64,000 bases of DNA from the NCBI RefSeq assembly GCF_030282845.1, contig NZ_JASTWE010000017.1:1-64000 (forward strand), given 5' to 3'. Below are positions 5,951-28,965 of this stretch, piece by piece. Numbering within the stretch: the first letter of the stretch is position 1; each line of letters begins with the position of its first letter. A program made the translations under genes and the position numbers. The DNA is from Pseudodesulfovibrio pelocollis (lineage in GTDB: Bacteria > Desulfobacterota > Desulfovibrionia > Desulfovibrionales > Desulfovibrionaceae). Under the pieces are notes generated by a model. It was given only the letters and a program-made list of their open reading frames with translations, made no database searches and had not been told where the DNA came from.

Positions 5951-5962
5951 GTGGTCTGTCGG

Positions 5963-6925: not shown

Positions 6926-6986
6926 GTGGAGTGTACCCGCGCTCCGGGCAAAGTCAACGACTCCGGCCAGGGTGATCCATGCAATG

Positions 6987-7021: not shown

Positions 7022-7044
7022 GCGGGATTCGCGGCAAGGCCGGG

Positions 7045-8886: not shown

Positions 8887-9063
8887 GGCGACTCCGGTAT
8901 CCGGTATATAGTAATGGGCGCACGCGCGCAGGCAAGCGGTTAGCCGAAAGCGTGGGGGCTGGCAAGAGGAGAATGCGTGTCGCGCAAGAAATCCGTTTGA
9001 ATCCGGCCTGAAATTCGATAGCGTGGGCGCGACCCGAATCCGCCACCTCTTCAGGAGCATCGC

Positions 9064-10293
9064 ATGAGTAACGGCTCTCCCTCCACCGGCAAGGTCGTCA
9101 CCACCTCGCTCATCGTCACGGGCAACATGCTCGGCGCGGGTATCCTGGCCCTGCCCATAGACCTCGGTCCGGCAGGGCTCCTGACGTCGGTGCTGGGCCT
9201 GCTCGGTGTGTGGGCGCTGATGACCTGCAACGCATTGATCATAGCCCGCCAGCCCTTCCTTGCGCAGAACAGGGATGCGGACCTGCCCACCTTCTTCGAG
9301 GTGGTCCTCGGCCCGGTAGGCAAGTGGGTCAGCGTGGCCGCCAACCTGGTCATCTTCTACGGGCTGCTCACCGCCTATCTGGCTGGCGCGGCCTCGGTGC
9401 TGGTGGGGTCGCTGGGGCTGGCCGTGCCCGGCTGGGCCGCCCTGGTCGGCTACTTCTGCATCGCCACGCTCTTCGCCTCCTTTGGCGATGTGGTGCTGCG
9501 CAAGGGGGCCACCGTGTTCATGACCGTCATGTGGCTGCTCTTCGCGGCCATGGTGGTCATGGTGGTGCCGCACTTCGAGGGCCACGGCGCGCGCGGGGTC
9601 GATCTCGTCTTCTTCACTTCGGCCCTGCCCATCCTGGTGGTGGCCTTCAACTTCCACAACGTCATCCCCACCGTGTGCCGGGTTCTCGATCACGACCGCC
9701 GGTCCATCACCAGGGCCATCTGGCTCGGCTCGAGCCTGGGCATGGTCATGACCTTCATCTGGACCCTGGCCGTGCTCATGACCCTGCCCATGGAGTCCGC
9801 CAATTCCGTGGACATCATCTCGGCCTTCAGCCACAACGAACCGGCCACCGTGCCCCTTGGCCGGTTGATCGCCACCAGGGTTTTTCTCGACGTGTCCGTG
9901 GCCTTTGCCGTGGTGGCCATGACCACGGCCTACATGGCCACCGGCGTGGCCATGCTCAGCTTCCTGCGCGACGTGGGCGGCCGACTGGGAAAGAACCGGC
10001 TGGTGGTCTGGCTCGTGGCCTTTGTGCCGCCCCTGGTCGTGGGCGCGCTCTACCCGGACATCTTCATCGACGCCCTCAACGTGGTCGGCGGCCTGGGCGT
10101 GGGCAGCCTCTTCGGCATCCTGCCGGGGTTGCTGCTCATCCGGCAGGGCGCGCCCGGGTCGCGCAGGCGGCTGGCCGGGTGGGGCATCGTCTGCTTCTTC
10201 TCCGTGGTCCTGCTGGTGGAGCTGGCGCAGATGACTGGCCTGGTCCACATCACCCCCGACATCGAATACTGGAACGCCCGACAGGGGCAATAG
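9064..10293 (+). CDS. Aromatic amino-acid permease (HAAAP family)
   Basis: 409 residues with about 11 membrane segments. It begins with TGNMLGAGILALPIDLGPAGL, the first-helix motif of the hydroxy/aromatic amino-acid permeases (TyrP, Mtr, TnaB), and contains FNFHNVIPTVCRVLDHDRRSI, matching the conserved loop of this family. It should import tryptophan or tyrosine with protons; the exact substrate cannot be read from sequence. GGAG precedes the ATG. The aspA gene starts 8 bp downstream, so the pair is probably an amino-acid uptake and use operon. Confidence 0.88.
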   Translation: MSNGSPSTGKVVTTSLIVTGNMLGAGILALPIDLGPAGLLTSVLGLLGVWALMTCNALIIARQPFLAQNRDADLPTFFEVVLGPVGKWVSVAANLVIFYGLLTAYLAGAASVLVGSLGLAVPGWAALVGYFCIATLFASFGDVVLRKGATVFMTVMWLLFAAMVVMVVPHFEGHGARGVDLVFFTSALPILVVAFNFHNVIPTVCRVLDHDRRSITRAIWLGSSLGMVMTFIWTLAVLMTLPMESANSVDIISAFSHNEPATVPLGRLIATRVFLDVSVAFAVVAMTTAYMATGVAMLSFLRDVGGRLGKNRLVVWLVAFVPPLVVGALYPDIFIDALNVVGGLGVGSLFGILPGLLLIRQGAPGSRRRLAGWGIVCFFSVVLLVELAQMTGLVHITPDIEYWNARQGQ

Positions 10294-10300
10294 GAGAATC

Positions 10301-11710
10301 ATGAGCGAGTACAGAATCGAGCGCGACAGCCTCGGCGAGATGCGGGTTCCGGCCGAGGCATATTACGGCATCCAGACCTTGCGGGCCATGGAGAACTTCC
10401 ACATCACGGGCATCACCATGGCCCACTACCCCCGGTTCATCACAGCCCTGGCCCATGTCAAGCACGCCGCGGCCAAGGCCAACGCCTCCCTGGGGCTGCT
10501 TGACGAAACCAAGGCCAGGGCCATTGCCCGGGCCTGCGAGGAGGTGGCCTCGGGCCTGCTGCACGACCAGTTCATGGTGGACGTGGTGCAGGGCGGGGCA
10601 GGCACCTCGGCCAACATGAACGCCAACGAGGTCATCTGCAACCGCGCCCTGGAGATGCTGGGCCATCAGCGCGGCCAGTACGAGTTTCTCCACCCCCTCA
10701 ACGACGTGAACATGTCCCAGTCCACCAACGACGTGTACCCGTCGGCCCTGAACATCGCCCTGATCCTCGACCTGCGCGAGCTGATCGACGCCATGGAGCA
10801 TCTGCGCAAGGCCTTCTGGCGCAAGGGACAGGAATTCGCGGACGTGATCAAGATGGGGCGCACCCAGTTGCAGGACGCGGTGCCCATGACCCTTGGCCAG
10901 GAGTTCACGGCCTGGTCGGTGATGATCGGCGAGGACGTGCAGCGGGTGGACGAGGCCGAGGACCTGATCTTCGAGATCAACATGGGGGCCACGGCCATCG
11001 GCACGGGCCTCAACTCCCACCCGGACTACACGCGCACCGTGACCGAAAAGCTGGTGGAGATCACCACCCTCAAGCTCGTCTCCTCGCCCGATCTGGTGGA
11101 GGCCACCCAGGATACCGGAGCCTATGTCCAGCTCTCGGGCGTGCTCAAGCGGGTGGCGGTCAAGCTCTCCAAGATCTGCAACGACCTGCGTCTGCTCTCC
11201 AGCGGCCCCCGCTGCGGCCTGAACGAGATTAACCTGCCGCCCATGCAGCCCGGGTCGTCCATCATGCCGGGCAAGGTCAACCCGGTCATCCCCGAGGTGG
11301 TCAACCAGGTGGCCTTTGCGGTCATCGGCCTTGATGTGACGGTGTCCATGGCCAGCGAGGCCGGGCAGCTGGAGCTCAACGTCATGGAGCCGGTCATCGC
11401 GTTTTCGCTCTTTCAGACCGTCAACATGCTCCGACGCGCCAGCTTGACCCTGGCCGACAAGTGCGTCTCCGGCATCACGGCCAATCGCGAGCGCTGCCGG
11501 GAGCTGGTGGAGAATTCCATCGGTCTGGTCACGGCCCTCAATCCCCATATAGGCTACGAGAAATCGGCCGAGATCGCCAAGGAGGCGCTGCGCACCGGCG
11601 GCTCGGTCTACGACATCGTGCTGGAGAAGGGGGTCCTGAGCCGCGAGGAGCTTGAGGACATCCTCAAGCCCGAGAACATGGTCAGGCCGCGCTACGTCCT
11701 TGGGCGGTAG
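10301..11710 (+). CDS. aspA: Aspartate ammonia-lyase
   Basis: 469 residues of the fumarase/aspartase superfamily, converting aspartate to fumarate and ammonia. The superfamily signature GSSIMPGKVNPVIPEVVNQ (about residues 317-335) and the early FMVDVVQGGAGTSANMNANEVI and HPLNDVNMSQSTNDVYP segments are intact. Aspartase rather than fumarase is favoured by the N-terminus YRIERDSLGEMRVPAEAYYGIQTLRAMENF. GGAGAA just before the ATG overlaps the end of the permease gene. In a sulfate reducer this enzyme can feed aspartate carbon into fumarate. Confidence 0.94.
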   Translation: MSEYRIERDSLGEMRVPAEAYYGIQTLRAMENFHITGITMAHYPRFITALAHVKHAAAKANASLGLLDETKARAIARACEEVASGLLHDQFMVDVVQGGAGTSANMNANEVICNRALEMLGHQRGQYEFLHPLNDVNMSQSTNDVYPSALNIALILDLRELIDAMEHLRKAFWRKGQEFADVIKMGRTQLQDAVPMTLGQEFTAWSVMIGEDVQRVDEAEDLIFEINMGATAIGTGLNSHPDYTRTVTEKLVEITTLKLVSSPDLVEATQDTGAYVQLSGVLKRVAVKLSKICNDLRLLSSGPRCGLNEINLPPMQPGSSIMPGKVNPVIPEVVNQVAFAVIGLDVTVSMASEAGQLELNVMEPVIAFSLFQTVNMLRRASLTLADKCVSGITANRERCRELVENSIGLVTALNPHIGYEKSAEIAKEALRTGGSVYDIVLEKGVLSREELEDILKPENMVRPRYVLGR

Positions 11711-11851
11711 CCGCGTTAGCGGTATTCGTCGAGGATGGTGTCTCGCTTGCTTTCACCGGGGGTTTGCGCTATCTTTCTAGACATTGTCCAGAATGTTTCG
11801 GGTGCCCGGCGGGTCGGGCAGTGATCAAGGCCGACCGGGCAAGGAGGAATC

Positions 11852-12613
11852 ATGCGTCGCATCATTGCACTGACCCTGGGGCTGGCACTGCTGGCCATGG
11901 CCGGGTGCGCCTCTTTGAGTCCTTTTCCAAAGAGTATCCATTCCACGCCGCCGAGCCAGCGCGACACGCCGGTGGTCCAGCCGACCACCGACCCCAAGAC
12001 CAGACCCTACACTGTGCTGGGCCGCACCTATTATCCGCTCATCTCGGCCCACGGCTATGACGAGGTGGGGCATGCCTCCTGGTATGGCAAGGATTTTCAC
12101 GGCAAGCCCACGGCCAACGGCCAGATCTACGACATGTACGGCATCTCGGCCGCCCACAAGCTGCTGCCGTTGGGTACCCGGGTGCGCGTGACCAACCTTG
12201 AGAACGGCCGCGTCCTGACCCTGATCATCAACGACCGGGGGCCCTTTGTGGACGGCCGGATCATCGACCTCTCCTATGGCGCGGCGCGGCATCTGGGCAC
12301 AGTGGAGCGCGGGGTGGTCCGGGTGCGCGTGGAGGCCATCGACACCGTGCCGTCCACGGCAACGCAGTTGGCCGGGTCGGCCATCAAATACTATCATGTC
12401 CGGGTGGGTGCCTTTGCCGTGCGCGCCAATGCCGACCGTGTCCACCGCCAACTGGTGGAGAGCGGATATCCCGAGGCGCGGGTGAGCATGGAGGAGCGCA
12501 ACGGCACGGTGCTGCATGTGGTCCAGGCAGGCAGCTTTGTCAGCCGCGACAAGGCCGAGGCAGTGCTGGCGCAGCTCAAGCGCTCCTTCCCCACCAGCTA
12601 TATCGTCAGTTGA
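11852..12613 (+). CDS. rlpA: RlpA family septal-ring lytic transglycosylase lipoprotein with SPOR domain
   Basis: 253 residues. A lipoprotein signal peptide with lipobox LAMAGC puts the acylated cysteine at residue 19. The RlpA double-psi beta-barrel follows (HASWYGKDFHGKPTANGQIYD ... LPLGTRVRVTNL ... INDRGPFVDGRIIDLSYGAARHL, about residues 73-155). A C-terminal SPOR domain (about 178-253, YYHVRVGAFAV ... VVQAGSFVS) binds denuded septal glycan. It is expected in the outer membrane or periplasm, cleaving peptidoglycan strands at division. AAGGAGG precedes the ATG. Confidence 0.93.
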   Translation: MRRIIALTLGLALLAMAGCASLSPFPKSIHSTPPSQRDTPVVQPTTDPKTRPYTVLGRTYYPLISAHGYDEVGHASWYGKDFHGKPTANGQIYDMYGISAAHKLLPLGTRVRVTNLENGRVLTLIINDRGPFVDGRIIDLSYGAARHLGTVERGVVRVRVEAIDTVPSTATQLAGSAIKYYHVRVGAFAVRANADRVHRQLVESGYPEARVSMEERNGTVLHVVQAGSFVSRDKAEAVLAQLKRSFPTSYIVS

Positions 12614-12635
12614 GCCGGGAGGCCGGATGGTCGCC

Positions 12636-12683
12636 GGACACGAAAGAACCCGCGCACGAAGATTCGCGCGCGGGTTCGTGTCC
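12636..12683. terminator. Inverted repeat downstream of rlpA
   Basis: GGACACG (12636-12642) and AACCCGCGC (12647-12655) pair with GCGCGGGTT and CGTGTCC (12668-12683), a 16-bp stem with one 4-nt bulge. There is no T-run. It lies between the convergent rlpA and lipoprotein genes and probably terminates both. Confidence 0.55.
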
Positions 12684-12722
12684 ATGCCGGGTGATCACCG
12701 GCCCCGGGGGAGCCGGGAGCGG

Positions 12723-13160
12723 TTACTGCTTGAGGTGCCAGACGCCCTTGTCGTCGCGCCAGGCCTTGGCCATGATGGACTCGCCGGACTTTTCATCCTT
12801 GATGACCACATCGCGGTAGATGCGGTTCTCGGCCATGTAAGGCTCCTTGGGCGTGGCCGTGTAGGAGTTGCCCGTGTCCGGGTTGGTCCAGTTGGAGGCC
12901 TGGCCGCTGCGGTTGCTTTCCAGGGTGCGCTGGACCTGGGCCTCGTCATGTTTGTCCCACTCGTTGCCGACGATGTAGCCCATCAGGACGCCGACGCCAG
13001 CGCCAACGGCCGCGCCGAGCAGTTTGTCCTTGAAGGTCAGGGCGCCGATGGTGGCACCGGCCAGGCCGCCGACCGTGGCTCCCTGCTGGGCCTTGTTGGC
13101 GCAGCCGAATCCGGCGGTCAGGAAGCAGACGAGAAGGACGATGATTGCGGTATGTTTCAT
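12723..13160 (-). CDS. Glycine-zipper lipoprotein
   Basis: 145 residues. It begins with a lipoprotein-type signal (MKHTAIIVLLVCFLTAGFGCANK, acylation Cys at 20). A glycine-zipper stretch follows (GATVGGLAGATIGAL and LLGAAVGAGVGVLMGYIVG), as in outer-membrane SlyB/OmpA-associated lipoproteins. The C-terminal half resembles surface-antigen or 17-kDa-antigen tails (VQRTLESNRSGQASNWTNPDTGNSYTATP). It is expected to be anchored in the outer membrane with a structural role. AAGGAAGG precedes the ATG. It is divergent from the kinase gene at 13379. Confidence 0.85.
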   Translation of the reverse strand: MKHTAIIVLLVCFLTAGFGCANKAQQGATVGGLAGATIGALTFKDKLLGAAVGAGVGVLMGYIVGNEWDKHDEAQVQRTLESNRSGQASNWTNPDTGNSYTATPKEPYMAENRIYRDVVIKDEKSGESIMAKAWRDDKGVWHLKQ

Positions 13161-13378
13161 TGGGTACCTTCCTTTGTTTTCAGGTTGCCTTGATGATAGC
13201 CTCACTTTGCCATCCTTGTACAGGAGTGAACGACTCCTTTTTCCCGAGGCTATCACAGATTCGCGGAGGTTTCCATGTTCTGGCGAACTTTTCAGGCCCG
13301 CCTCTTGCAGTTGTTCACGGTCTGCCTTCAGGCCCGTGCCTGGGCATTCCTCCTGAACTTCGGACCCGAAGGTGAACG

Positions 13379-16027
13379 ATGCGACGCGCTCCATTATTGA
13401 TGTTCCTCCTTGTCCTCGTCCTGGCCGCCGCCTGCCTGGCCCCGTCGCCGGGGCTGGCCGAGATGGCCAAGAAGAACGTCCTCTATCTCAACTCCTACCA
13501 TCGGGGCTACAAGTGGTCCGACGACATCTTCGACGGTATCCGCTCGGTGCTGGAGGCCGGGCCGTACAAGGTCGATCTCCAGATCGAGTACATGGACGCC
13601 AAGAAGTACAATTACGAGGACGTCACCGGCATGCTCCTGCGCCTCTACAAGGAGAAGTTCCGGGGCGAGCGGTTCGACGTGGTGCTGGTCTCGGACAACG
13701 ACGCCTTCAATTTCGCCCGGCATTACCGCGAGCAGCTTTTTCCCGGGGTGCCGATCGTTTTTTGCGGAGTCAACGCCCTTGAACCCGAAGAACTGGCCGT
13801 GGGCAACATCACCGGCGTGGAGGAGAATTTCGACCTCTCGATGACTCTGGACGTGGCCCGCAGGCTCCACCCGGACAAGCGCCACATGGTGGTGGTGGGC
13901 GACGCCTCCACGGCCGGGCTGGCCATCAAGCGCCAGGTGGAGATGGCCGTGCCCGCCTACGGGCCGGATCTCACGGTGGATTACTGGACCAACCTTTCGC
14001 TGCCCGATGTCCTTGACCGGGTGACCATGCTCCCGCCGGACACCTTCCTCTTCTTCATTCCCTACTACCAGCCCATGGGCGACAACTTCTACACCGCCGA
14101 GGAGGTGGTTTCCTCCATCTATGCCCACTCAAGCGTGCCCATCTACACGGCCTGGGAGTTCCTCATCGGCCACGGCGCGGTGGGCGGCCATGTGCTCTCC
14201 GGCTTCCTTCACGGCCAGACCGCCGCGGCCATGGCCCTGGATATTCTGGCGGGCAGATCGGCTGACGACATCACGGTGCTCTACGACGCCGGGGGCGAGT
14301 TCGTCTTCGACCACATCGTCATGACCCGGCTGGGCCTGACCGACGAGATGCTGCCCCGGGGCAGCCGCATCATCAACGCGCCCAAGGCGTTCTACGAGAT
14401 GCCCAAGGAATTGTTCTGGACCATCATGGTCAGCTTCGCCCTGCTGCTGCTGGTCACGGTGTTCCTGGTCTTCGCCATGATCGAGCGGCGCAAGGTGGAG
14501 CGCAAGATCAAGGACCAGCTCGCCTTTCAGGAAACGCTCATGGACACCGTGCCCCAGCTTCTCTCGTGGAAGGACATGAACGGACGCTATCTCGGTGCCA
14601 ACCGCGCCTTTGCCGAGTTCTTCGGTCACGCGGACTCCTCGTCCATTGTCTCCAGGACCACCAGCGAGATCATCGGCGATGCCGAGTATGTGCGCTGGGC
14701 CATGAACGGGGACCAGCAGGCCATGCGCGACCCGGACGCGGTGCGCAAGGTGCGGCGCAAGCTGGTGGACGGCTCCGGGGCGCGGGCCTGGCTTGAGGTG
14801 AACAAGGTGCCCATCCGCGACCAGTCGGGCCGGGTGGTGGGCGTGCTGAGCACGGCCGAGAACATCACCAAGGAGCACAACCTCGAAAAGCAGCTTCTCC
14901 AGTCGCAGAAGATGGAGGCCATCGGCACATTGGCCGGTGGTATTGCCCATGATTTCAACAACATACTCACATCGATCATCAACTCCACAGAGCTGGCCCT
15001 GGGCGATGTGGAGCCCGATTCGGTGACGCGCCGCGATCTGGAGCGGGTGCTCAAGGCCGCCCGGCGCGGCGGGCGCGTGGTCAAGCAGATCCTCGCCTTT
15101 AGCCGACCGTCCACCGAGGGGTTCCGGCCCACGGACCCGGGCGCGGTGGTGGCCGAGGCCCTCGGCCTGCTGGAGGCGTCCATGCCGAGCAATATCGAGG
15201 TCCGCTCCCATGTGGACCCGACCCTGCCCTGCGTATTGGCCGACCCCACCCAGCTGCATCAGGTGGCCATGAACCTGTTTACCAACGCCTTTCACGCCTT
15301 GCGCGAGGCGGGCGGAGTGATCGAGGCGTGGGTGGAGCCGGTCTTTCTGGCCGAGGACGAGGCCACCGCCATGGGCCTTGAGCCGGGCGAGCACGTGCGC
15401 CTGCGCATCGAGGACAACGGCCCGGGCATCCCGCCCGAGATCGTGGACAAGATATTCGACCCGTTTTTTTCCACCAAGGACAAGACCGAGGGCACCGGGC
15501 TGGGGCTGGCCGTGGTCCACGGCATCGTTCGGAGCCATCGGGGCGGATTGCGCGTCCTTCCCAGGCCGGGCGGGGGCATTGTCTTCGACGTTTGCCTGCC
15601 CCGGGCCGAGGGCATTGATTCCGAGTGCCCGGCCCGGCCGACCGGTCCGGTCCTGCCCGGCGGGCGCATCCTCTTCGTTGAGGACGACCATGACCAACTG
15701 GAGGCCACCCCGCGCCTGCTTGAGGTCATGGGCTACCGGGTCACCCCGGCCCAGGCCCCGGAACAGGCGCTGGCCCTGGCTGGTGCCACGCCGTGTCCCT
15801 TTGACCTGCTCATCACCGACTACGACATGCCGGGCATGAGCGGCACCCAGCTGGCCCGGCGGGTGGGCGAGATCGCCCCGTCCCTGCCCGTGGTCCTGGT
15901 TTCCGGACGCGAGGACGCGGCCGCGGCCGCCGTCCACTTGCCCAATATCCGTCAGGTGGTTATCAAGCCTTACGACAAGGACGATCTCGCGGCCGCCATA
16001 GCGGGCGCGCTCAAGGCAACGCAGTGA
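13379..16027 (+). CDS. Hybrid sensor histidine kinase with periplasmic ABC-type substrate-binding domain
   Basis: 882 residues. A signal peptide (1-27) is followed by a periplasmic ABC-substrate-binding-like sensor (about 35-325), a membrane helix (about 345-367), a PAS domain (385-500), a HisKA dimerisation domain with the phospho-acceptor His near 524 (GGIAHDFNNILTS), and a HATPase domain (N box, DNGPGIPPEI, GTGLGLAVVHGI; about 630-740). A C-terminal receiver with FVEDD and ITDYDMPG completes it (phospho-Asp near 813). The sensor probably binds a small organic solute outside the membrane. A sigma-54 activator follows after 22 bp, so they form one operon. By synteny with D. vulgaris I infer that the pair controls the lactate operon at 25366; the ligand is not proven. 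Confidence 0.92.
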   Translation: MRRAPLLMFLLVLVLAAACLAPSPGLAEMAKKNVLYLNSYHRGYKWSDDIFDGIRSVLEAGPYKVDLQIEYMDAKKYNYEDVTGMLLRLYKEKFRGERFDVVLVSDNDAFNFARHYREQLFPGVPIVFCGVNALEPEELAVGNITGVEENFDLSMTLDVARRLHPDKRHMVVVGDASTAGLAIKRQVEMAVPAYGPDLTVDYWTNLSLPDVLDRVTMLPPDTFLFFIPYYQPMGDNFYTAEEVVSSIYAHSSVPIYTAWEFLIGHGAVGGHVLSGFLHGQTAAAMALDILAGRSADDITVLYDAGGEFVFDHIVMTRLGLTDEMLPRGSRIINAPKAFYEMPKELFWTIMVSFALLLLVTVFLVFAMIERRKVERKIKDQLAFQETLMDTVPQLLSWKDMNGRYLGANRAFAEFFGHADSSSIVSRTTSEIIGDAEYVRWAMNGDQQAMRDPDAVRKVRRKLVDGSGARAWLEVNKVPIRDQSGRVVGVLSTAENITKEHNLEKQLLQSQKMEAIGTLAGGIAHDFNNILTSIINSTELALGDVEPDSVTRRDLERVLKAARRGGRVVKQILAFSRPSTEGFRPTDPGAVVAEALGLLEASMPSNIEVRSHVDPTLPCVLADPTQLHQVAMNLFTNAFHALREAGGVIEAWVEPVFLAEDEATAMGLEPGEHVRLRIEDNGPGIPPEIVDKIFDPFFSTKDKTEGTGLGLAVVHGIVRSHRGGLRVLPRPGGGIVFDVCLPRAEGIDSECPARPTGPVLPGGRILFVEDDHDQLEATPRLLEVMGYRVTPAQAPEQALALAGATPCPFDLLITDYDMPGMSGTQLARRVGEIAPSLPVVLVSGREDAAAAAVHLPNIRQVVIKPYDKDDLAAAIAGALKATQ

Positions 16028-17686: not shown

Positions 17687-17959
17687 ATGACCAAAGCAGA
17701 ACTTGTTGCCAAAATCGCTGAGAAGAACGGCACCTCCAAGGCTCAGGCCGAGGCGTCCATGAATGCCATTCTCGAAGTCATCCAGGCTGAGCTTGCCGCA
17801 GGAAACAAGCTGACCCTGACCGGGTTCGGCACCTTCAGCGTCAGTGAGCGCAAGGCCCGCACCGGCCGCAACCCCCGCACCGGCGCGGACATCAAGATCC
17901 CCGCCTGCAAGGTTGCCCAGTTCAAGCCCGGCAAGGTTCTGAAGGAAGCTGTTAAGTAG
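17687..17959 (+). CDS. HU family DNA-binding protein
   Basis: 90 residues, the standard size for the HU/IHF histone-like family. It starts MTKAELVAKIAEKNGTSKAQAEASMNAIL. It has the beta-arm region GFGTFSVSERKARTGRNPRTGADIKIPA, which contains the DNA-intercalating Pro of the RNPRTG loop, and ends FKPGKVLKEAVK. It binds and bends DNA as a homodimer in the nucleoid. GGAGAGA precedes the ATG and a textbook terminator follows. Mu-type transposition depends on HU in the well-studied Mu system, which makes the adjacent Mu-like element notable. Confidence 0.96.
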   Translation: MTKAELVAKIAEKNGTSKAQAEASMNAILEVIQAELAAGNKLTLTGFGTFSVSERKARTGRNPRTGADIKIPACKVAQFKPGKVLKEAVK

Positions 17960-17981
17960 TTCGCGTTCGCGCTGTTGTTGA

Positions 17982-18018
17982 GGGAGCCCCCCCGGTCGCC
18001 GGGGGGGCTCCCTTTTTT
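17982..18018 (+). terminator. Strong terminator of the HU gene
   Basis: A 14-bp GC-rich stem (GGGAGCCCCCCCGG at 17982-17995 with CCGGGGGGGCTCCC at 17999-18012), a 3-nt loop and six T. The Mu-like element is inserted 16 bp beyond the T-run. Confidence 0.97.
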
Positions 18019-18027
18019 CCTGCCCGA

Positions 18028-18034
18028 TCTGGAC
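18028..18034 (+). repeat. Target-site duplication, left copy
   Basis: TCTGGAC immediately precedes the element terminus TGCTAGCGG. The same seven bases follow the other terminus at 24993-24999, as expected for a staggered insertion. Counting an A that could belong to either side, 8 bp cannot be excluded. Confidence 0.8.
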
Positions 18035-18041
18035 TGCTAGC

Positions 18042-18082
18042 GGACACTTGGTTTTCAAAAGCCGGGTCACTTGGTTTTCAAA
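18042..18082 (+). repeat. Paired transposase end sites, Mor-side terminus
   Basis: Two direct copies, GGACACTTGGTTTTCAAA (18042-18059) and GGTCACTTGGTTTTCAAA (18065-18082), lie 23 bp apart starting 7 bp inside the terminus. Tight adjacent spacing is the pattern of the R1-R2 transposase sites at the right end of phage Mu. The sequence itself is unlike Mu. Confidence 0.75.
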
Positions 18083-18129
18083 TCTGGTTAACAAAAACAA
18101 GGCCCCAACTCGTGAGGCCCATGTTGTGG

Positions 18130-18501
18130 CTACCTGCGGACGATCTCCTCGGCTTCTTGGCGCGGCGGGGGTGAAGCCGGTGGCTTGGCCAAGCTCCTCT
18201 CGGCCTTGATAATCCTATAAATTGTCTGCCTTGACAGGTTGTATTTGTGGGACAGTTCTTGGGTGTTTTCCCCATTGAACTCCATGGCGATCTGCCTGTT
18301 TCTGGCCTCAATACGACCAAGCTTGTTCATCGGTATGTAGAGAATCTGACCACCCCAGTCTTCGGCCAGATAGTTGGCGATAGTGGTACCCAGTTCTTCA
18401 GCCTCATCCTCATCCAGGCCAAAATTTTGAGCAGCGACATATGACACCTTGTCAGCGAGATCGTGGAGCAGTTCGGTAGCGATGTGCCTTTCATCTTTCA
18501 T
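18130..18501 (-). CDS. Mor-family transcription activator
   Basis: 123 residues. The central part matches the Mor/C activator family of Mu-like phages: ANYLAEDWGGQILYIPMNK (dimerisation region), then ARNRQIAMEFNGENTQELSHKYNLSRQTIYRIIKAER, a C-terminal helix-turn-helix. Mor turns on the middle promoter of phage Mu. Its gene overlaps the upstream 75-residue gene by 11 bp and ends only about 95 bp from the element terminus, so the usual downstream module is missing. Its target promoter, if any, is unknown. Confidence 0.88.
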   Translation of the reverse strand: MKDERHIATELLHDLADKVSYVAAQNFGLDEDEAEELGTTIANYLAEDWGGQILYIPMNKLGRIEARNRQIAMEFNGENTQELSHKYNLSRQTIYRIIKAERSLAKPPASPPPRQEAEEIVRR

Positions 18502-18718
18502 GGAGGTCTGTCCTTATAGTCGTAATTCTGTCCGCCTCCCTGAACCACCTTGGCTTACTGTCCAAACCTCTGATCACTCGCTGGCGTATTGCCCAGTCTT
18601 CCAAAGATTCGAGCTCCGGGTCATAGCTTTCGAAATCCAAGGCAAAATGGAACTCTCGATCGATGGCATCATTGATCATGGCTTGTGTGCACTCCTCCTT
18701 CGTTTCACAGAAATCCAT
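18491..18718 (-). CDS. Small hypothetical protein of the Mu-like element
   Basis: 75 residues, acidic, with no recognised domain (MDFCETKEECTQAMINDAIDREF ... WAIRQRVIRGLDSKPRWF). It overlaps the Mor-like gene by 11 bp, which suggests translational coupling. The 84-bp gap upstream contains two near-identical blocks on the minus strand (TTAAACGG and TTAAACCGG) that could be a promoter or binding site. The function is unknown. Confidence 0.6.
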   Translation of the reverse strand: MDFCETKEECTQAMINDAIDREFHFALDFESYDPELESLEDWAIRQRVIRGLDSKPRWFREADRITTIRTDLHER

Positions 18719-18802
18719 GGGGCAACCTGTCTGTCCTTTTTGAGGCGTAAAGCCGGTTTAAAATCCGTTTAACAGACCCTTCAAAAGCCAAACACGGGCA
18801 GA

Positions 18803-19198
18803 TTATTCCGCCTGCTGTGAGGCCTCTGTGATGTCCGTCTGCAAAAGGATCATGACCTTCTGGAGTTCAAAGACGGTCGCGCTTTCGAGTCTGTTGAGGC
18901 CAGTCAACCGCTCCAGCTTCATTGCCGCATAGTCCCATGACACAGGCTCTCCCCACGCCGCTCCCAGTTCCTTCAGGAGCAACTCCATGCGTTTCAGGAC
19001 CGGAACGGCTGGGTGGTTCGCGTCCTTCAGAGTGGCAGGCCTGCCATGCCTGTCTTTCCGAGCAGGCTTCTGCGGAGCACGCTGGCCGGGAACCACTTGG
19101 CTCAAGCGAGGAAAAGGAATGACAAGGCAGTTGTGTCCCTGCCTTGTCGATTCGCCTTTGCGGCAATGTTCTATGGGAAAGCGCAGAACGGTTTCCAT
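18803..19198 (-). CDS. Possible GemA/Gp16-like regulatory protein
   Basis: 131 residues. The C-terminal half (KRMELLLKELGAAWGEPVSWDYAAMKLERLTGLNRLESATVFELQKVMILLQ) resembles the C-terminal pattern of phage Mu GemA (DUF1018), a host-modulating early protein. The N-terminal half is basic and Pro-rich with no recognised family. AGGAG lies 7 bases before the ATG and the gene starts 10 bp after the MuB-like stop codon, so it belongs to the early operon. The family assignment is tentative. Confidence 0.5.
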   Translation of the reverse strand: METVLRFPIEHCRKGESTRQGHNCLVIPFPRLSQVVPGQRAPQKPARKDRHGRPATLKDANHPAVPVLKRMELLLKELGAAWGEPVSWDYAAMKLERLTGLNRLESATVFELQKVMILLQTDITEASQQAE

Positions 19199-19208
19199 GG
19201 CGTGGCTC

Positions 19209-20156
19209 CTAGAGTGTGCCGCCCAGGTCGGCCCAAGCCGTCTGAATGTGATCGAAGGTCATGCTCTGGCCGTCCTCGGTCATCATGCTGCTCATTTTCA
19301 GAACCTTGGTCAGGCCGCGCAGGGCTCCGGCCTGCTGGGCGATGGCCTTGCACAGCTCGTGGCTTTTGCGGCCCTTGATCTGCCATGCGGCCAGAAGCGC
19401 ATCCACGTCACCGGCTGTGGGGCTGCCGAGCTTGACCCGATACCCCACGCGGCTGAAAAGCTGCGCGAAGTGAGCCTGACGGCTGCCGCCGGTGATCCGG
19501 GTGTACACGCTCTCGTTCCCCATGAGCGCCACGCCAACGCCGGTGGCGTCATACACGCTGCGGATGGCCTCAAGGCTGCTCACAGGCAGGTGCTGCGCTT
19601 CGTCCACGATCAGGAGCCCGCTGGTCTGGGCGATGCGCCCGACAATGGCGTTCTCCGTCTTGATGGCGCTGGGCTGCGCCTCGGAAATTCCCACGGCAAA
19701 GGCGACACGTTCAAGGCATGCCGCCACGGTGTTCATGGCCGGACTCATCGTCGCCAGCCATACATTGGGATAGCTGTCCTGATAGTAGCGGGCCGTGCAC
19801 GTCTTGCCGACACCTGCACCGCCGTAGACCAGGGCCATGTCGCCTGCCCGCTGGGCGTATTTGAGGACGTTGACAATGTTCTTGGCCGTGGGCGTCGGCT
19901 CCCAATCCGGGACCGCGCACAACGCCCGTGTGTCGTTGCTTTCTTCCTGCACCGACATCAGCCACCGTTGCAACTCATCGGCAACGGCCTGATTGTCACC
20001 GGAGTACCTGCCGGAAAACCAAAGCGACAGCCGAGTGCTGCCTACCCCGGATTCCTTGGAAAGCTTGCTCTGGCTCATGTTCCGCCGCTTCATTTCTTCG
20101 CGCAGGGCCTCTTTCAGGCTGACATCGTCGCGCTGCTGTCTTTCCGCATCATTCAT
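19209..20156 (-). CDS. MuB-like AAA+ ATPase, target-DNA selector
   Basis: 315 residues. The N-terminal Cro-like helix-turn-helix (about 12-70, SLKEALREEMKRRNMSQSKLSKESGVGSTRLSLWFSG) precedes an AAA+ domain with Walker A GGAGVGKT (112-119) and Walker B LLIVDEAQHL (181-190), followed by the C-terminal helical domain typical of Mu B and TniB/TnsC-type proteins. In Mu the ATP-bound protein filaments on target DNA, activates the transposase and gives target immunity. It lies 20 bp downstream of the transposase gene. Confidence 0.92.
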   Translation of the reverse strand: MNDAERQQRDDVSLKEALREEMKRRNMSQSKLSKESGVGSTRLSLWFSGRYSGDNQAVADELQRWLMSVQEESNDTRALCAVPDWEPTPTAKNIVNVLKYAQRAGDMALVYGGAGVGKTCTARYYQDSYPNVWLATMSPAMNTVAACLERVAFAVGISEAQPSAIKTENAIVGRIAQTSGLLIVDEAQHLPVSSLEAIRSVYDATGVGVALMGNESVYTRITGGSRQAHFAQLFSRVGYRVKLGSPTAGDVDALLAAWQIKGRKSHELCKAIAQQAGALRGLTKVLKMSSMMTEDGQSMTFDHIQTAWADLGGTL

Positions 20157-20176
20157 AGTGTTCCTCCAAGCTATGA

Positions 20177-22144
20177 TTACGCTTCCTGGGCAAAGGGAAA
20201 GAATTCCTCTTCACCCATTTCATCAATTCTCTTCTGCCAGTTGCTTCTGAAGGCGCTGGCCTTGGAGGGATCGACCTTGTGGGAAAGGCGTTCCTCCACT
20301 TCCACCTGGGAAAGCACCGTGGTGCTTGTATGCGCGGTCGGATGAGGGGCGGCGGCATGCGAAATGTTGAACTGCCTATATTCCAGGTCGGTCATGCGCG
20401 TGGCGACCTTGGAGGCCTGCTTGATCATCTTGTGGCGCTGACGCTTCAGGCGGCTATGCTCTCTCGCCTCGTCCTTGTCGTTGAACGCGACCACAGGCAT
20501 CCAGTCGGCGGTGCCAAGGCGTTCGCCGTCGAGATTGTAAATCTCGACCTGCTCGGAAAGGTTCTTGGGATTGAAGACCACCGCGACCTTCTCCCCATGC
20601 TCAACGGTGTCGAAATTCAAGGAGTAGCGGTGCTTGGCATCGCCCTTGCCGGCATTGATACGAACCGAGCCCTTGGAGACCGTGGCCACTTCCTGATCGC
20701 ACAGCAGCATGCGGAGCAGTTGCTTCGAAGGCTTGCGGGCAGGCGATTTCTCGAAGCTCTCTGCGTAGATTTCGTTGTAGCTTCTGCCTTCGCAGCCTCG
20801 GCCAGTGCGCCCCTTCATGCCGTTGAACTCGGCTACCACGTGCTCCAGAATCTCCTTGAATTCGTCGTAGGGAATAGCCGTGGCCTTGGAGTGACCGCGA
20901 TTCTTCAAGGTCGGCCATGTGCGCATGAGGCCGTGCAGACCGCTCTTGCCCTGGAACGCCCGCTCAATGGGCTTGACGCCGGGATTGCTCATTTCCTGGT
21001 CGGGATTGGTGAAGTGGACCATGACACCGGCATGCTGCAAAAGCCCAACCGGGTCGAAGGGGCTGACCTTGAACCGGTGGCGATGACGTGCCTTGCCGGT
21101 CAGAGCCTTGTTCGCAGCCGCCATGGTGTTGTCAATCCACAGGTCTGTCGGCAGCGTGTGCTTCAGCAGGTTGTACATGGCAAGCCGGAACATGTCGGCG
21201 TTCTCGGTCTTGGCCACTTCCCAGCTCAAAATCTTGCTTGAATACAAGTCCTGCATGAACCAGACGCTTGTCTGGTTCGATATCTCGCCGTCCCCGTAGT
21301 CCACATAGATGGAGTCAAATTTCAGGGCGTCACCATTGACTTCCCGGCCCGCAACGAAATGTTCGCGCGAACGTTCCTGATCCGGGTGGAGGCCGCGCAG
21401 GTCGCCGGTGCGCAGATAATAGATCACGGCCCAGCCGACCTCGCGCTTCATGCGGCGGCTCAATGTCTTTTGAGACGGGATTTCCCAGGAAAATTCTTCC
21501 GCCAAGCGGCTTAACCTGCGGTAGGAAAGGGCGAAGGATGGCTGTTCCTTGCGAAGGTAGTCCTTCTTCAGCCACTCCCAGGCGGTTTCATCGCATGGGG
21601 CATACGTCACGCGGCCCCTGTAGTTGTCAACCAAGAAAGGCAGCCAGTCCTTGTTGTCTATGTCTTTCACTCCGCGCTTCCCGTCGCGCCCATAGTACCA
21701 ATTGATCAAGTTGTGGATATTCTCGCCGCTTTCCTCGGCCACAACCTTGAACGCATTGGTTATGTTCATGCCAGCGCAATGCAGCTTCCAAACCTTCTGA
21801 AGCAGGTCGCACTTATAGCCAGCTTTTTCTTTTGCCTTGGTAGACTTGCGGGCAAATTCATCCCACGCGGCATCAATGAGGGCCTGCTCATGGACTGGCG
21901 TATTGCCGCCCGCAGGCCGGGGGGAGTGTCCAGCCTCCTCGCACAGAGCCACGGCGACTTCATTCCGGGAGCGTTCGTCCATGGAGGAATACCGCCACTC
22001 CTTGCCCCCGCCGCGACCTCCGGCGGCTTGGCCTGCCCAGGCCCCCTTGTCTGCACGCTTCAAGACCGCTGTGCGGGAAATGCCCAGCAGTCTCGCTATT
22101 TCAGCGGTCTTGAAGCTTTGGTTGTGCAGACGGGTCAGGTCCAT
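20177..22144 (-). CDS. MuA-like DDE transposase
   Basis: 655 residues, close to Mu A (663). The N-terminus (1-35) has a helix-turn-helix (FKTAEIARLLGISRTAVLKRAD), and a second DNA-binding region lies up to about 245. The catalytic core (about 265-450) aligns by eye with Mu A: first Asp in NGDALKF (272), second in LWIDNTMAAANKALTG (338), Glu in KPIERAFQG (394). All three acidic residues are present, so it is probably active. A beta-barrel and a basic C-terminal segment (EHSRLKRQRHKMIKQASK) follow, the latter suitable for contacting the MuB partner. It cuts the 3' ends of the element and joins them to target DNA. Confidence 0.95.
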   Translation of the reverse strand: MDLTRLHNQSFKTAEIARLLGISRTAVLKRADKGAWAGQAAGGRGGGKEWRYSSMDERSRNEVAVALCEEAGHSPRPAGGNTPVHEQALIDAAWDEFARKSTKAKEKAGYKCDLLQKVWKLHCAGMNITNAFKVVAEESGENIHNLINWYYGRDGKRGVKDIDNKDWLPFLVDNYRGRVTYAPCDETAWEWLKKDYLRKEQPSFALSYRRLSRLAEEFSWEIPSQKTLSRRMKREVGWAVIYYLRTGDLRGLHPDQERSREHFVAGREVNGDALKFDSIYVDYGDGEISNQTSVWFMQDLYSSKILSWEVAKTENADMFRLAMYNLLKHTLPTDLWIDNTMAAANKALTGKARHRHRFKVSPFDPVGLLQHAGVMVHFTNPDQEMSNPGVKPIERAFQGKSGLHGLMRTWPTLKNRGHSKATAIPYDEFKEILEHVVAEFNGMKGRTGRGCEGRSYNEIYAESFEKSPARKPSKQLLRMLLCDQEVATVSKGSVRINAGKGDAKHRYSLNFDTVEHGEKVAVVFNPKNLSEQVEIYNLDGERLGTADWMPVVAFNDKDEAREHSRLKRQRHKMIKQASKVATRMTDLEYRQFNISHAAAPHPTAHTSTTVLSQVEVEERLSHKVDPSKASAFRSNWQKRIDEMGEEEFFPFAQEA

Positions 22145-22151
22145 GGATCAC

Positions 22152-22784
22152 CTAATGCGAAACGGTGTCGGCAGGGTTGATGGCGTGGTCGGCTTCAGGA
22201 AGAAGCCGTTCGGGATAAACGCTGAAATGGTGCAGGAGGATGGCGAAACGGACATCCTGCCCCTGCCTGATGAACAGGTCCAGCCGGTCAGAGCAGACAA
22301 CCGTGAGCAGGTCGAAAAGTTCCGCGACAGGAATCTGGTATGCGCTGGATATCGCGACAATCCCAGAGTTCAGATCAAGAGACAGGGACTGAACAACGTC
22401 CTCGACCATGGCAAACTGCCGGGTGCGGTACAACGCCTTGAAATGCTTTTCGTAATCTATGCCGAAGGCATGTCCGTTGATGGTGAGGATCGCGGCCCGG
22501 ACCTCTTCGGCCAGCGGGTATTCTTCCTCTTCCTGCCGGTAGTGTTCGGCGGCGATCTCCATGAGCCTCTTGGCCGGGATGGTCATGCCGTCCCAAAACG
22601 GCTCCGGGAATACGTTGCCCTCGTGGTCCGCGTAGTCGCGCTCCACCTCTGTCCACCCTTCCAGCCTCGCCAGCTTGCGGATGCCCTTGACCGACACGCC
22701 AAGCGTTTCGGCAAGCCATTCCGTGGTGAAGTAGGGATACGGAACCCGCTCCTCATCCGATAACAAAGTCAAACGGCTGCTCAT
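22152..22784 (-). CDS. Hypothetical protein of the Mu-like element with N-terminal HTH
   Basis: About 210 residues. The N-terminus (FTTEWLAETLGVSVKGIRKLARLEGWTEVERD) looks like a Mu-type winged-helix DNA-binding segment. The rest is helical and acidic with no recognised family. It ends 7 bp before the transposase start. A TTG at 22790 is possible, but GGAG is better spaced for the ATG at 22784. It may be an accessory DNA-binding protein of transposition or replication; this is inference from position. Confidence 0.6.
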   Translation of the reverse strand: MSSRLTLLSDEERVPYPYFTTEWLAETLGVSVKGIRKLARLEGWTEVERDYADHEGNVFPEPFWDGMTIPAKRLMEIAAEHYRQEEEEYPLAEEVRAAILTINGHAFGIDYEKHFKALYRTRQFAMVEDVVQSLSLDLNSGIVAISSAYQIPVAELFDLLTVVCSDRLDLFIRQGQDVRFAILLHHFSVYPERLLPEADHAINPADTVSH

Positions 22785-22786
22785 GA

Positions 22787-23281
22787 TCAACGTCTCCTTT
22801 TATGAGTGTCCACAAGCTCGCTCTCCAGCTTCCGCAACTGGCGCGTGCGCTCTTTGCTCTCAAACTTGGCTTTGCCGTATTCATAAAGCAGGGCTTCTTC
22901 AGGAGTGAGCAGCTTGCAGCCGTGAAACTCGGCAAGCAGCCCCAGGGGCGCGAAGTTGCCAATGGCCAGCATGAAGACCTCGACCGCCATGAGCGGCGGG
23001 ATATCGTCCGTGTCGTTGGGGGCAAGCCACTTGTCCAATATATTGGCGGTCAGAAGGCGGGTGCGGCCCGAGGTGATCTTGACGCCGCTTTGCCGGGCGA
23101 TCTCGTTCATGCGGTCAACTAGCTGGGCGCGGGAAAGATGGGGGGCGGCGGAAGCCAATGCCGATTGCATGCAGGCCTTCAGCGCGGCGGTCAGGCCGCC
23201 AACATGCATCAGCGCAGAGGAACAGGTCTTTTGGCTTCCGCCGCCTGATTCGGAAAAAAGTGAGAGCTGGTAGCTGCTCAT
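22787..23281 (-). CDS. Hypothetical protein of the Mu-like element
   Basis: About 164 residues, mostly helical (LTAALKACMQSALASAAPHLSRAQLVDRMNEIARQSGVKITSGRTRLLTANILDKWLAPND). The middle part resembles a short phage DNA-binding or regulatory domain, and the C-terminus is strongly basic (ERTRQLRKLESELVDTHKRRR). No named family recognised. A GTG at 23287 is an alternative start. It lies between the AlpA-like gene and the 210-residue protein in the early operon. Confidence 0.6.
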   Translation of the reverse strand: MSSYQLSLFSESGGGSQKTCSSALMHVGGLTAALKACMQSALASAAPHLSRAQLVDRMNEIARQSGVKITSGRTRLLTANILDKWLAPNDTDDIPPLMAVEVFMLAIGNFAPLGLLAEFHGCKLLTPEEALLYEYGKAKFESKERTRQLRKLESELVDTHKRRR

Positions 23282-23327
23282 GCCCACGCCCCCGCGTTGA
23301 GAGCGTGCGCGGCCTGGGCAAAGGCAT

Positions 23328-23416
23328 GGCGGTGGGAGCCGGAGAGGCCTGACGCGGACAACTTCGAGGCGGACGGAATCGAAGCTGTAAGGCTCGGCCT
23401 AGCGGCTCCCACCGCC
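23328..23416. other. Strongly structured 89-bp segment, candidate RNA element
   Basis: Three nested stems with nothing coding across them. The outer stem is a perfect 14 bp (GGCGGTGGGAGCCG at 23328-23341 with 23403-23416), the middle one 5 bp (AGGCC 23345-23349, GGCCT 23396-23400), and the inner one 9 of 10 bp (23358-23367 with 23379-23388, containing CTTCGA/TCGAAG). It sits in the 182-bp gap between two early genes of the element and would be transcribed from the minus strand. Confidence 0.5.
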
Positions 23417-23463
23417 AAATTCAATGAAATGTGTCCAGCGCTCTCGTGCATGGCCGTCCGCCC

Positions 23464-23712
23464 CTACAACTCCTGCTTCCCACGCGGGGCAAGCCGCTGC
23501 TCAAGCCAGAGGAGGAAGGACTCCTTCTCGTAGCCGACCTTGCGTCCCATCTTGAAGGACTGGGGGCCAAGGCCCTCCTTGTCCAACTTGATCAGGTTGC
23601 AGACGGTGAGCAGCCCGCCGGTAAGTTCCTCCACCCGCCTGCGGCAAAACAGCGGAGGCAGCTTTTCCTTGAGGGCAGCAAGCACACGGTCTTTGCAATA
23701 ATCCTGGCTCAT
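23464..23712 (-). CDS. AlpA/excisionase-like small DNA-binding protein
   Basis: 82 residues. The pattern CRRRVEELTGGLLTVCNLIKLDKEGLGPQSFKMGRKVGYEKESFLLWLEQRL is that of AlpA-like helix-turn-helix proteins, which bind phage or plasmid control regions. By position (first early gene, divergent from the repressor) it is the counterpart of Mu Ner, although the sequence family differs. The ATG at 23712 faces the dyad at 23737-23792. Confidence 0.7.
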   Translation of the reverse strand: MSQDYCKDRVLAALKEKLPPLFCRRRVEELTGGLLTVCNLIKLDKEGLGPQSFKMGRKVGYEKESFLLWLEQRLAPRGKQEL

Positions 23713-23736
23713 GAAGTCCGCCGTGGATCAGGTTTT

Positions 23737-23792
23737 GCCCAGTCAGCCTAGCCCGGATGCCCGTTGCGCCCGAACTAGGCCGTTGACTGGGC
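23737..23792. promoter_or_regulatory. Two-tier dyad, candidate operator of the early promoter
   Basis: GCCCAGTCA (23737-23745) and GCCTAG (23746-23751) are mirrored exactly by CTAGGC (23775-23780) and TGACTGGGC (23784-23792). It lies in the roughly 200-bp divergent region between the AlpA-like gene and the repressor gene, where Mu-type operators are found. Confidence 0.5.
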
Positions 23793-23913
23793 GGGGAGAG
23801 GCGGATAGGGTTTGTTCCAAGAATACAGTGGATCAGCCTCTTTTGGTTAGCTTTGAACCGATTTTGGGAAATTGTCAACCGATTATGATTATTTTCTCAA
23901 ATATGGATATGTC

Positions 23914-24390
23914 ATGTTCGAGACAATCGACTTGGTTTCTCTTGGAAAACGAATAAAGAAGCTCCGAGGCAAAGAGTCTCGAAGTAGCTTTGCCGAAAGT
24001 TTTTTTGTCGCGCCGAGTTCGTTAGCCCGCTGGGAGGCCGGAGAGAGCCAGCCTGATATTAGCTTCTTGATTCGTTTGGTGGGCTTTTACAACATTACGC
24101 TCGAATGGCTAATGACAGGAAAAGATGGGTTGCTAGAGGACGAGGCCAAGGGCAAGAGAGTTCCTGGCGAAGCACAATTTCGCTACTTAGATGACGAACA
24201 AAGAAAAACCAAAAACGAGAAACTTCCTAGCCAAGACAACTGTGTCTCTTTTGCTGCATATCGCGAGATAGAATGTGAATTGCGCGACCTCTACAAGGAA
24301 AACGCACGGCTTCTTAGGGAGAACTCTGACCTGAAGGTAGAAAACGAGCGACTATCTCATCAAGTTGCACAGGCATCAGATAAATCCTAG
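23914..24390 (+). CDS. XRE-family phage-type repressor
   Basis: About 158 residues. An N-terminal XRE helix-turn-helix (LGKRIKKLRGKESRSSFAESFFVAPSSLARWEAGESQPDISFLIRLVGFYNITLEWLMTG) is followed by a linker and a C-terminal coiled coil (YREIECELRDLYKENARLLRENSDLKVENERLSHQVAQ) for oligomerisation. No S24 peptidase domain is present, so self-cleavage in an SOS response is unlikely. It is transcribed opposite to the early genes, as for the c repressor of Mu. The gene is unusually AT-rich. The start is uncertain: ATG at 23914 or TTG at 23872, neither with a clear ribosome site. Confidence 0.85.
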   Translation: MFETIDLVSLGKRIKKLRGKESRSSFAESFFVAPSSLARWEAGESQPDISFLIRLVGFYNITLEWLMTGKDGLLEDEAKGKRVPGEAQFRYLDDEQRKTKNEKLPSQDNCVSFAAYREIECELRDLYKENARLLRENSDLKVENERLSHQVAQASDKS

Positions 24391-24565
24391 TAGATATGAT
24401 TAGGTCTGTACATTAACTTTGACACTACAGTATGTTGCTGTACTATCTTTTGCTGGTTGCGACACGGTGATGAATCTCCCGGCCGTAACACGGCGCTTGC
24501 GCCGGAGTGCTATGCGGGGTTTCCGGACTCAGTCCGGGCAGGGAGGCCCCGTCAACCAACTCCTC

Positions 24566-24591
24566 ATGAGCCCCGCTTCGGCGGGGCTCAT
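24566..24591 (+). terminator. Terminator-like hairpin after the repressor gene
   Basis: An 11-bp perfect stem ATGAGCCCCGC / GCGGGGCTCAT with a stable TTCG tetraloop, followed by CCCTTT. The short T-run makes termination moderate. Confidence 0.6.
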
Positions 24592-24796
24592 CCCTTTCGG
24601 CCATGGCATAAGGTAATGGTTGCCAGCCCTGGTGGAGCCCTCCAAAACTGGTTAACAGTTCAAGGGCAGACATTCACCGGCCAGCCGCCCCGGCACCCAC
24701 AACCCCCAAAGCCCGGCCCGACCAAAAGCCACGGCTAATCAACCTTTAAACGCCCCGTAACGGCTCCATCAATGATCATTCACAGGTTGACAAAGA

Positions 24797-24815
24797 TTTG
24801 CAAACCAAGTGACCC
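24797..24815 (-). repeat. Internal transposase end site, repressor-side terminus
   Basis: On the minus strand it reads GGGTCACTTGGTTTGCAAA and matches the site at 18064-18082 at 18 of 19 positions. It lies about 180 bp inside the terminus. The wide spacing from the terminal site is like the L1-L2 arrangement of phage Mu. Confidence 0.75.
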
Positions 24816-24967
24816 AACGCCCAATTCCGATGTGGTTTACAAAACTTTTGAAGACTCATTGTCCTGCCCCTCAACCCAAAACGCCACCACCCCGAAAACC
24901 ATGCGCCACAACGGTTCCCATCCCACTATGTCTCGGATAGATTCGCTTCATCCCGGTTCACAGTTCA

Positions 24968-24992
24968 TTAGTAAACCTTGTGTCCCTTAGCA
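24968..24992 (-). repeat. Terminal transposase end site, repressor-side terminus
   Basis: On the minus strand it reads TGCTAA then GGGACACAAGGTTTACTAA, a divergent copy of the end-site consensus. It begins with TGCTA like the other end and abuts the TCTGGAC repeat. Confidence 0.75.
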
Positions 24993-24999
24993 TCTGGAC
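24993..24999 (+). repeat. Target-site duplication, right copy
   Basis: TCTGGAC directly after the terminal TAGCA. It is identical to 18028-18034. Deleting the element and one copy would restore a continuous chromosomal sequence. Confidence 0.8.

Positions 25000-25284: not shown

Positions 25285-28965
<3,681 letters not shown>

Follow-up and report, generated by a model that had tools for sequence, protein, structure and literature searches.

Phage Mu generates a 5-bp target duplication, and Mu-like phages of 36-37 kb carry their own lysis, head, tail and packaging genes. Transposons of the Tn7, Tn5053 and IS21 types pair a DDE transposase with an AAA+ partner. Laboratory mini-Mu derivatives transpose, grow lytically with a helper Mu and are packaged together with flanking DNA (excerpt of PMC2865507). 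Among satellites, P4 encodes delta, a homologue of P2 Ogr that promotes P2 late gene expression (excerpt of PMC8628076), and the excerpted text of a review covers P4-like elements, PICI, cfPICI, PLE, PICMI and others, none of them described there as based on Mu transposition (PMC11389934). Several of these systems share features with a 6,958-bp element at positions 18035-24992 of a 64,000-nucleotide stretch of Pseudodesulfovibrio pelocollis DNA (contig NZ_JASTWE010000017.1, positions 1-64,000, forward strand; hereafter the window), which is the subject of this study.

The element's best match by sequence in the phage collection was Chromohalobacter phage YPCBV-1, its MuA being 32% identical to that of YPCBV-1 and 34% to that of Mu. 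Like Mu-like phages, it orders its MuB, repressor, GemA and Mor genes as they do, ends in TG...CA-type termini and is flanked by a short target duplication, but it measures only 7 kb, has no lysis, head, tail or packaging genes, and duplicates 7 bp of target (6-8 bp in its relatives). A laboratory mini-Mu such as MudII4042 likewise places both Mu ends around a shortened inside; it is man-made, whereas the present element belongs to a natural lineage in which Mor is retained and some relatives have a head protease as well. With P4-like and PICI satellites it shares small size, a repressor and the absence of virion genes of its own, and in carrying Mor it recalls P4, whose delta is homologous to the late activator of its helper (PMC8628076, same excerpt). 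In contrast to these integrase-using satellites, the element relies on DDE transposition at varied sites, and it has none of P4 alpha, Sid and Psu; PICMI satellites are reported to do without capsid-remodelling genes as well. The element resembles the Tn7, Tn5053 and IS21 types in its DDE transposase and AAA+ partner, yet its proteins fall to the Mu-specific families PF02914, PF09039 and PF09077 and sit in a phage regulatory frame.

No description of a natural mini-Mu or Mu-type satellite was found in the titles and abstract openings of the open-access literature. A survey of Leptospira transposable prophages, according to its excerpted text, dropped contigs below 35 kb (PMC8705779), so surveys can miss such compact units, and a Desulfovibrio prophage survey mentions prophages left unclassified, which it regards as possible remnants or satellites (PMC8146710). 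The sequence-only reading had proposed an undescribed element type; a natural counterpart of the laboratory mini-Mu would be the fairer description.

Results

A Mu-type element without virion genes

The element has TGCTA...TAGCA termini and is flanked on both sides by the 7-bp target duplication TCTGGAC, the junctions reading gatctggac followed by TGCTAGCGGACACTTGGTTTTC on one side and GTGTCCCTTAGCA followed by tctggacggcg on the other. The inverted ends match each other at 17 of 22 positions. When the window was scanned for 7-bp direct repeats spaced 3-12 kb apart with ends matching at least 17 of 22 positions, 18035-24992 was the sole pair found. The same scan returned 3 pairs altogether in 40 first-order Markov (Markov-1) random windows, so that ends and repeat alone are expected by chance in about 1 window in 13; together with the enclosed transposase genes and the same layout in relatives, they are convincing. 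GC content is lower in the element than in its flanks, and the element has one match only in the host's own genome, a 138-contig draft. Its features are as follows (aa, amino acids; ORF, open reading frame; HTH, helix-turn-helix).

18028..18034, no strand: target-site duplication TCTGGAC, Mor side (end sequence and scan)
18035..18129, + strand: right (Mor-side) end, TGCTAGCGGACACTTGGTTTTCAAA, then a second copy GGTCACTTGGTTTTCAAA 25 bp further inward
18130..18501, - strand: Mor family late-transcription activator, 123 aa (PF08765 8.9e-27, phrog_532 2.3e-26)
18491..18718, - strand: 75-aa ORF, no assigned function (no Pfam, PHROG or PADLOC match)
18803..19198, - strand: 131-aa GemA homologue lacking its central part through an in-frame loss (aligned with the L021, L026 and L020 proteins)
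19209..20156, - strand: MuB, AAA+ transposition activator, 315 aa (PF09077, Phage-MuB_C, 5.8e-19; PF13401 6.6e-14; phrog_296 7.4e-73)
20177..22144, - strand: MuA DDE transposase, 655 aa (PF02914, DDE_2, 1.1e-27; PF09039 2.1e-24; phrog_310 8.5e-90)
22152..22790, - strand: 212-aa protein, no assigned function (conserved 5' of MuA in relatives, 22-31% identity; no Pfam or PHROG match)
22787..23287, - strand: 166-aa regulator of the phrog_2345 family (1.4e-28)
23464..23712, - strand: 82-aa ORF, earlier called AlpA-like (59-60% identity to L005 and L021 ORFs)
23872..24390, + strand: 172-aa CI-like HTH repressor, oriented away from the early operon (HTH_3 6.5e-07, phrog_8 6.1e-11)
24730..24992, - strand: left (repressor-side) end, TGCTAAGGGACACAAGGTTTAC terminal, with an additional GGGTCACTTGGTTTGCAAAT site about 175 bp inward
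24993..24999, no strand: target-site duplication TCTGGAC, repressor side (end sequence and scan)

Here and below, L, G and C numbers denote loci, genomes and contigs, respectively. The repeated sites of the right end are likely candidates for the MuA end-binding sites R1 and R2, and the first 72 bp of this end align at 79% to the right end of L007. The left end shares the asymmetry of Mu attL.

Profile matches confirmed MuA, MuB, the repressor and Mor, all four of which had been named from sequence, as had the TGCTA ends and their flanking repeat. The claimed catalytic triad also held, D272, D338 and E394 of MuA lying in invariant columns of an alignment of nine MuA proteins, and the MuB translation shows both Walker motifs (A, GGAGVGKT; B, LLIVDEAQ). 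The GemA-like gene stood as a homologue, not as an intact gene: the 131-aa product aligns at 43-54% with L020-L022 and L026 (tblastn) and has no match in Pfam or PHROGs, whereas the full-length counterparts of L021 and L026 match PF06252 and that of L020 matches phrog_286. The AlpA-like assignment did not survive, the 82-aa ORF matching neither Pfam nor PHROG families at E 0.1. The 166-aa regulator is shared with L005 and L021 (73% identity) and with L020 and L029 (51%).

Consistent with the claim of a compact element without virion genes, no Pfam or PHROG profile for virion, packaging or lysis genes matched any element ORF, and probes from Mu, YPCBV-1 and related loci picked up no late gene, either within the element or anywhere in the 64-kb window. 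The profile matches of the nine element ORFs likewise included no tyrosine or serine integrase and no P4 or PICI core gene. With regard to defence cargo, PADLOC gave only HTH-level matches to the repressor. The transposition genes and ends look intact and look sufficient for transposition.

Compact relatives at other sites

MuA of this type was present, at E 1e-30, in 6 of 348 genomes of the order, including the element's own, and the class-level search returned the same 6 of 348. In none of the six was a full phage found around MuA within the stretches examined. Viral contigs contributed three closer loci (L020-L022), and a wider MuA profile applied to such contigs kept 80 of 284 loci.

The sequence-only reading had suggested looking for the same 7-kb unit at several sites; what exists elsewhere is a related form, with duplications of 6-8 bp. 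L021 is a complete element of 10.3 kb (56-10376) with both ends and the target duplication GCCAGAG, and L026, in G336, is a complete element of 9.6 kb (4873-14516) with both ends and the duplication GGGCGGTG. G078 carries a left half on contig C21, 95.2% identical to L021 over 4,500 bp, and a right half on contig C3, 93.6% identical over 3,443 bp from after MuB to the right end, in which no late gene was found; the flanks of the halves share 6 bp (gcacgc) at a site different from that of L021, and we infer that the two halves represent one insertion. L027, in G236, has both ends by motif and no detectable target duplication; L007, L020, L022 and L028 are partial. The anatomy of the lineage comprises both Mu-type ends, a repressor and an early operon (regulators, MuA, MuB, GemA and Mor), with no virion genes.

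In a tree of 76 MuA rows, built by a quick, bootstrap-free method after 12 of 88 were dropped as near-copies, the window MuA grouped with L005, L007, L020, L021, L022, L026, L027 and L028 in a clade of nine with support of 95 in the Shimodaira-Hasegawa-like approximate likelihood-ratio test (SH-aLRT); inner clades of seven and six members had support of 97 and 99, and L027 and L060 were flagged as long branches. None of the 35 rows labelled as carrying virion genes fell inside the clade of nine; 35 others were labelled undetermined, and the positive label came only from an endolysin match for L051 and only from gp25 or gp26 for several others. A rescan of the nine members turned up no terminase, portal, capsid, sheath or baseplate gene, L020 and L022 being too short to judge. 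As a terminase probe, phrog_6 was poorly suited. A head protease is kept in L007, L026 and L027, and a tail-protein fragment in L007.

Selection was measured in the group formed by L021, G078 and L022, two of them known compact elements, as the ratio of nonsynonymous to synonymous substitution (dN/dS). For L021 against G078 and against L022, respectively, the values were 0.072 and 0.111 for MuA, 0.022 and 0.054 for MuB, and 0.048 and 0.146 for GemA; Mor gave 0.215 (L021 against G078 only), and a coiled-coil-like protein discussed below 0.20. MuA, MuB, GemA and Mor are therefore under purifying selection in this group of one genome and two metagenome contigs, which argues against mere decay.

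Relatives also differ in accessory genes. In L021, a 221-aa ORF after MuB (6560-7225; orf221) includes a stretch resembling MuA (residues 387-501, 29%, E 3e-05), has a relaxed dN/dS of 0.48-0.74 and looks like a decaying partial duplication. Left-arm proteins of L005 (6352-7251, a repressor with HTH) and L021 (739-1419) have C-termini that resemble the start of GemA, at PF06252 values of 0.0082 and 6.1e-05, both below the cut-off. Zinc-ribbon-like proteins with an AGGDI- or AGRDI-like motif are encoded near the left end of L005 (5997-6389), L020 (780-1166) and L026 (5050-5520) and are possible cargo; PADLOC found no defence-system match for those of L020 and L026. Three further loci on viral contigs, L023-L025, were picked up by the right-end DNA pattern and dismissed as chance, as they had no match to the nine window proteins.

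The insertion site

Two host genes frame the insertion.

17687..17959, + strand: host HU-family gene just upstream of the insertion (PF00216 7e-35)
25309..28965, + strand: host flank gene, 1,218-aa ORF, used as probe for the empty-site search

The element lies directly 3' of the HU gene and a terminator-like stem (17687-18034). HU is a host factor in Mu transposition; its proximity is probably a coincidence. The 1,218-aa ORF, which we take to be pyruvate:ferredoxin oxidoreductase, matched 36 of 36 genomes of the genus, and seven genus loci were compared with the joined flanks. In G003 (L230) the site is without the element and aligns through the junction (85% over 1,337 columns, 24 gaps), though poorly in the intergenic stretch. 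Both flanks are present about 0.9 kb apart in G004 (L231) and G026 (L233), and the G004 spacer has no match to reference phage proteins; the remaining four loci do not show both flanks. No evidence of a Mu-like prophage at this site was seen in the seven loci. Simple local deletion, in which close relatives were expected to hold a full prophage with the same ends at the same place, is thus unsupported. Late-gene loss in the lineage's past is nevertheless likely.

Mor, particle genes and the search for a helper

Mor is kept in all four elements that have both ends and a duplication (the window element, L021, L026 and G078), where it sits at the late end or close to it and is followed by no late operon. 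Two subfamilies are represented, phrog_532 in the window and phrog_836 in L021 and L026, and L027 and L028 carry an HTH protein (phrog_33310) instead. Across the order, 126 of 345 genomes have Mor-family genes, many of these genes lying within full phages. The window Mor is at most 47% identical to other Desulfovibrionales Mors, the best being L118 (G272), whose contig also has a Mu portal gene. Outside its own group, L021 Mor is closest (56-57%) to a Mor in G077 that directly precedes terminase, portal, protease and capsid genes. The maintenance of Mor by selection without a target of its own suggests action in trans.

Some relatives also retain candidate particle-modifying genes. The L026 223-aa protein matches the Mu protease profile PF10123 over positions 1-137 (of 330) and reads as the protease part without the scaffold half; the second half of the profile presumably corresponds to scaffold Z, judging from the Mu record. 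A protein that appears coiled-coil-like from its sequence follows the protease in L026 and L007 and is last in L021, the L026 version being only 24% identical to that of L021. It occurs in 5 of 345 genomes and, with the L021 member as probe, in none of 50,697 phage records. The idea that it is specific to satellites was abandoned, as it lies beside a capsid gene in G150 and near tail genes in G272; a plain phage origin is thus possible, the gene perhaps being an ordinary head gene from a phage that has been poorly sampled. The units concerned, G272:C1 (L163/L210) and G150:C57 (L170/L226), belong to another transposase lineage (69-71% to each other in the transposase, 85% in the B protein) and hold the coiled-coil-like protein, a protease and a tape-measure-like gene, with the capsid gene in G150; no portal or terminase match was found nearby, and no convincing end pair.

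As a sign of potential helpers, a Mu-type portal (PF06074) was found in 4 of 10 genomes searched (G004, G078, G312 and G272) and was not detected in the host, G336, G236, G183, G016 or G020. The host has a second Mu-like element, L146 (on G000:C74, the whole 7,279-bp contig), with a different transposase pair, an HU-like protein, GemA and Mor; its contig starts exactly with TGATCCCCACTGTTATAATC, similar to what follows Mor in G004. Several Mu-like phages have divergent arms, with structural genes on one strand and transposition genes through to Mor on the other (L207/L148 in G004, L151/L152 in G078:C2, L214 in G032, L218 in G055 and L219 in G156). This arrangement places Mor at or near a terminus, as read to the end in G004 and G078. 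The G004 and G078:C2 Mor loci had been considered, initially with G000:C74, as a second compact type that terminates after Mor, which was rejected because they are full divergent phages with late genes on the other arm. In G019, G020 and G026 a Mor arm occurs without a structural arm in the stretches read.

Discussion

We are highly confident that 18035-24992 is a real element and a member of a compact Mu-family lineage of Desulfovibrionaceae. As to how it spreads, packaging by a helper phage, as a satellite, appears the likeliest route at roughly even chances, and the complete chain that would make it a natural mini-Mu comes close to an even bet. In such a chain, the repressor would keep the early operon silent until repression is relieved, whereupon MuA and MuB would replicate the element by Mu-type transposition. 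Mor, lacking a late operon of its own, would switch on in trans the late promoters of a Mu-like phage that shares the cell or infects it, much as P4 delta acts on P2, and the element with adjoining host DNA would be packaged in the helper's particles, as is laboratory mini-Mu with helper Mu. With the Mor and packaging steps, it would be a phage satellite, one whose means of movement is transposition.

Several observations weigh against this proposal. The window's sister, L007, is broken: its cut MuB runs directly into the tail fragment and then the head protease. Decay by deletion thus does happen in the lineage, the common ancestor of the window and L007 probably still had part of the late region, and late-gene loss may have occurred repeatedly. 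The window copy itself is the only one in its genome and lacks the head protease and the coiled-coil-like protein, and its GemA is damaged. Mor is present in only five of the nine MuA clade members (none was detected in L007, L027 or L028, and L020 ends too early), and the L021-type Mor has no match in the window's genome and belongs to a subfamily unlike the window's. Target duplications of 6, 7, 7 and 8 bp are found where one transposase should give one length. Finally, no Mu-type portal was found in the draft host genome, as judged by PF06074 only.

A bolder version would recognise a class of transposable satellites that replicate Mu-fashion at many sites and use their own Mor to turn on helper late genes, some members reshaping the helper head by means of the prohead protease without its scaffold half and the coiled-coil-like protein. 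The window copy would then be a minimal member, with the helper supplying everything except transposition and late activation. We put this forward tentatively, as a possibility well short of even odds.

Rather unlikely, in our judgement, is a stand-alone, repressor-controlled transposon of phage origin that uses MuA and MuB to move inside the cell and passes between cells only by chance (natural uptake, general transduction or plasmids), its Mor and GemA serving its own regulation or being leftovers. MuA, MuB, the ends and the repressor look sufficient for such a life, no portal gene was found in the host or in G336, G236 and G183, and the window copy carries no candidate particle-modifying gene. 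Purifying selection on a Mor without a late operon in the L021 group is harder to accommodate, however, as is the retention of head protease and coiled-coil-like protein by some relatives, and the near-identical copies in G078 and two metagenome contigs favour an efficient vector.

We consider unlikely, and already weakened, the view that the element is a decaying, defective prophage, derived from a complete Mu-like phage whose late region disappeared either in place or not long before it arrived, its relatives being separate deletions of related phages. The late-gene remnants beside the cut MuB of L007 fit this view, as do the damaged GemA of the window, the tail-like protein kept by L029 with a MuA broken after about 176 positions, and the late genes on several viral contigs next to the MuA clade. 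Yet the nine MuA proteins, whose contigs are compact or poor in late genes, group in one clade without a known full phage, the six genomes with this MuA type show no full phage around it in the stretches examined, the compact L021 form occurs at two sites with selection maintained, and the insertion site shows no prophage in the genus loci compared. An assembly artefact joining prophage pieces, for which the draft state of 138 contigs might speak, is highly improbable given the exact 7-bp duplication, the matching ends, the continuity of the flanks in G003 and the independent compact relatives in other genomes and metagenomes.

If the natural mini-Mu reading is correct, this lineage would be a satellite amplifying itself through transposition. 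Because of such amplification, helper particles would carry host DNA from many sites, and the lineage would be a strong engine of gene transfer.

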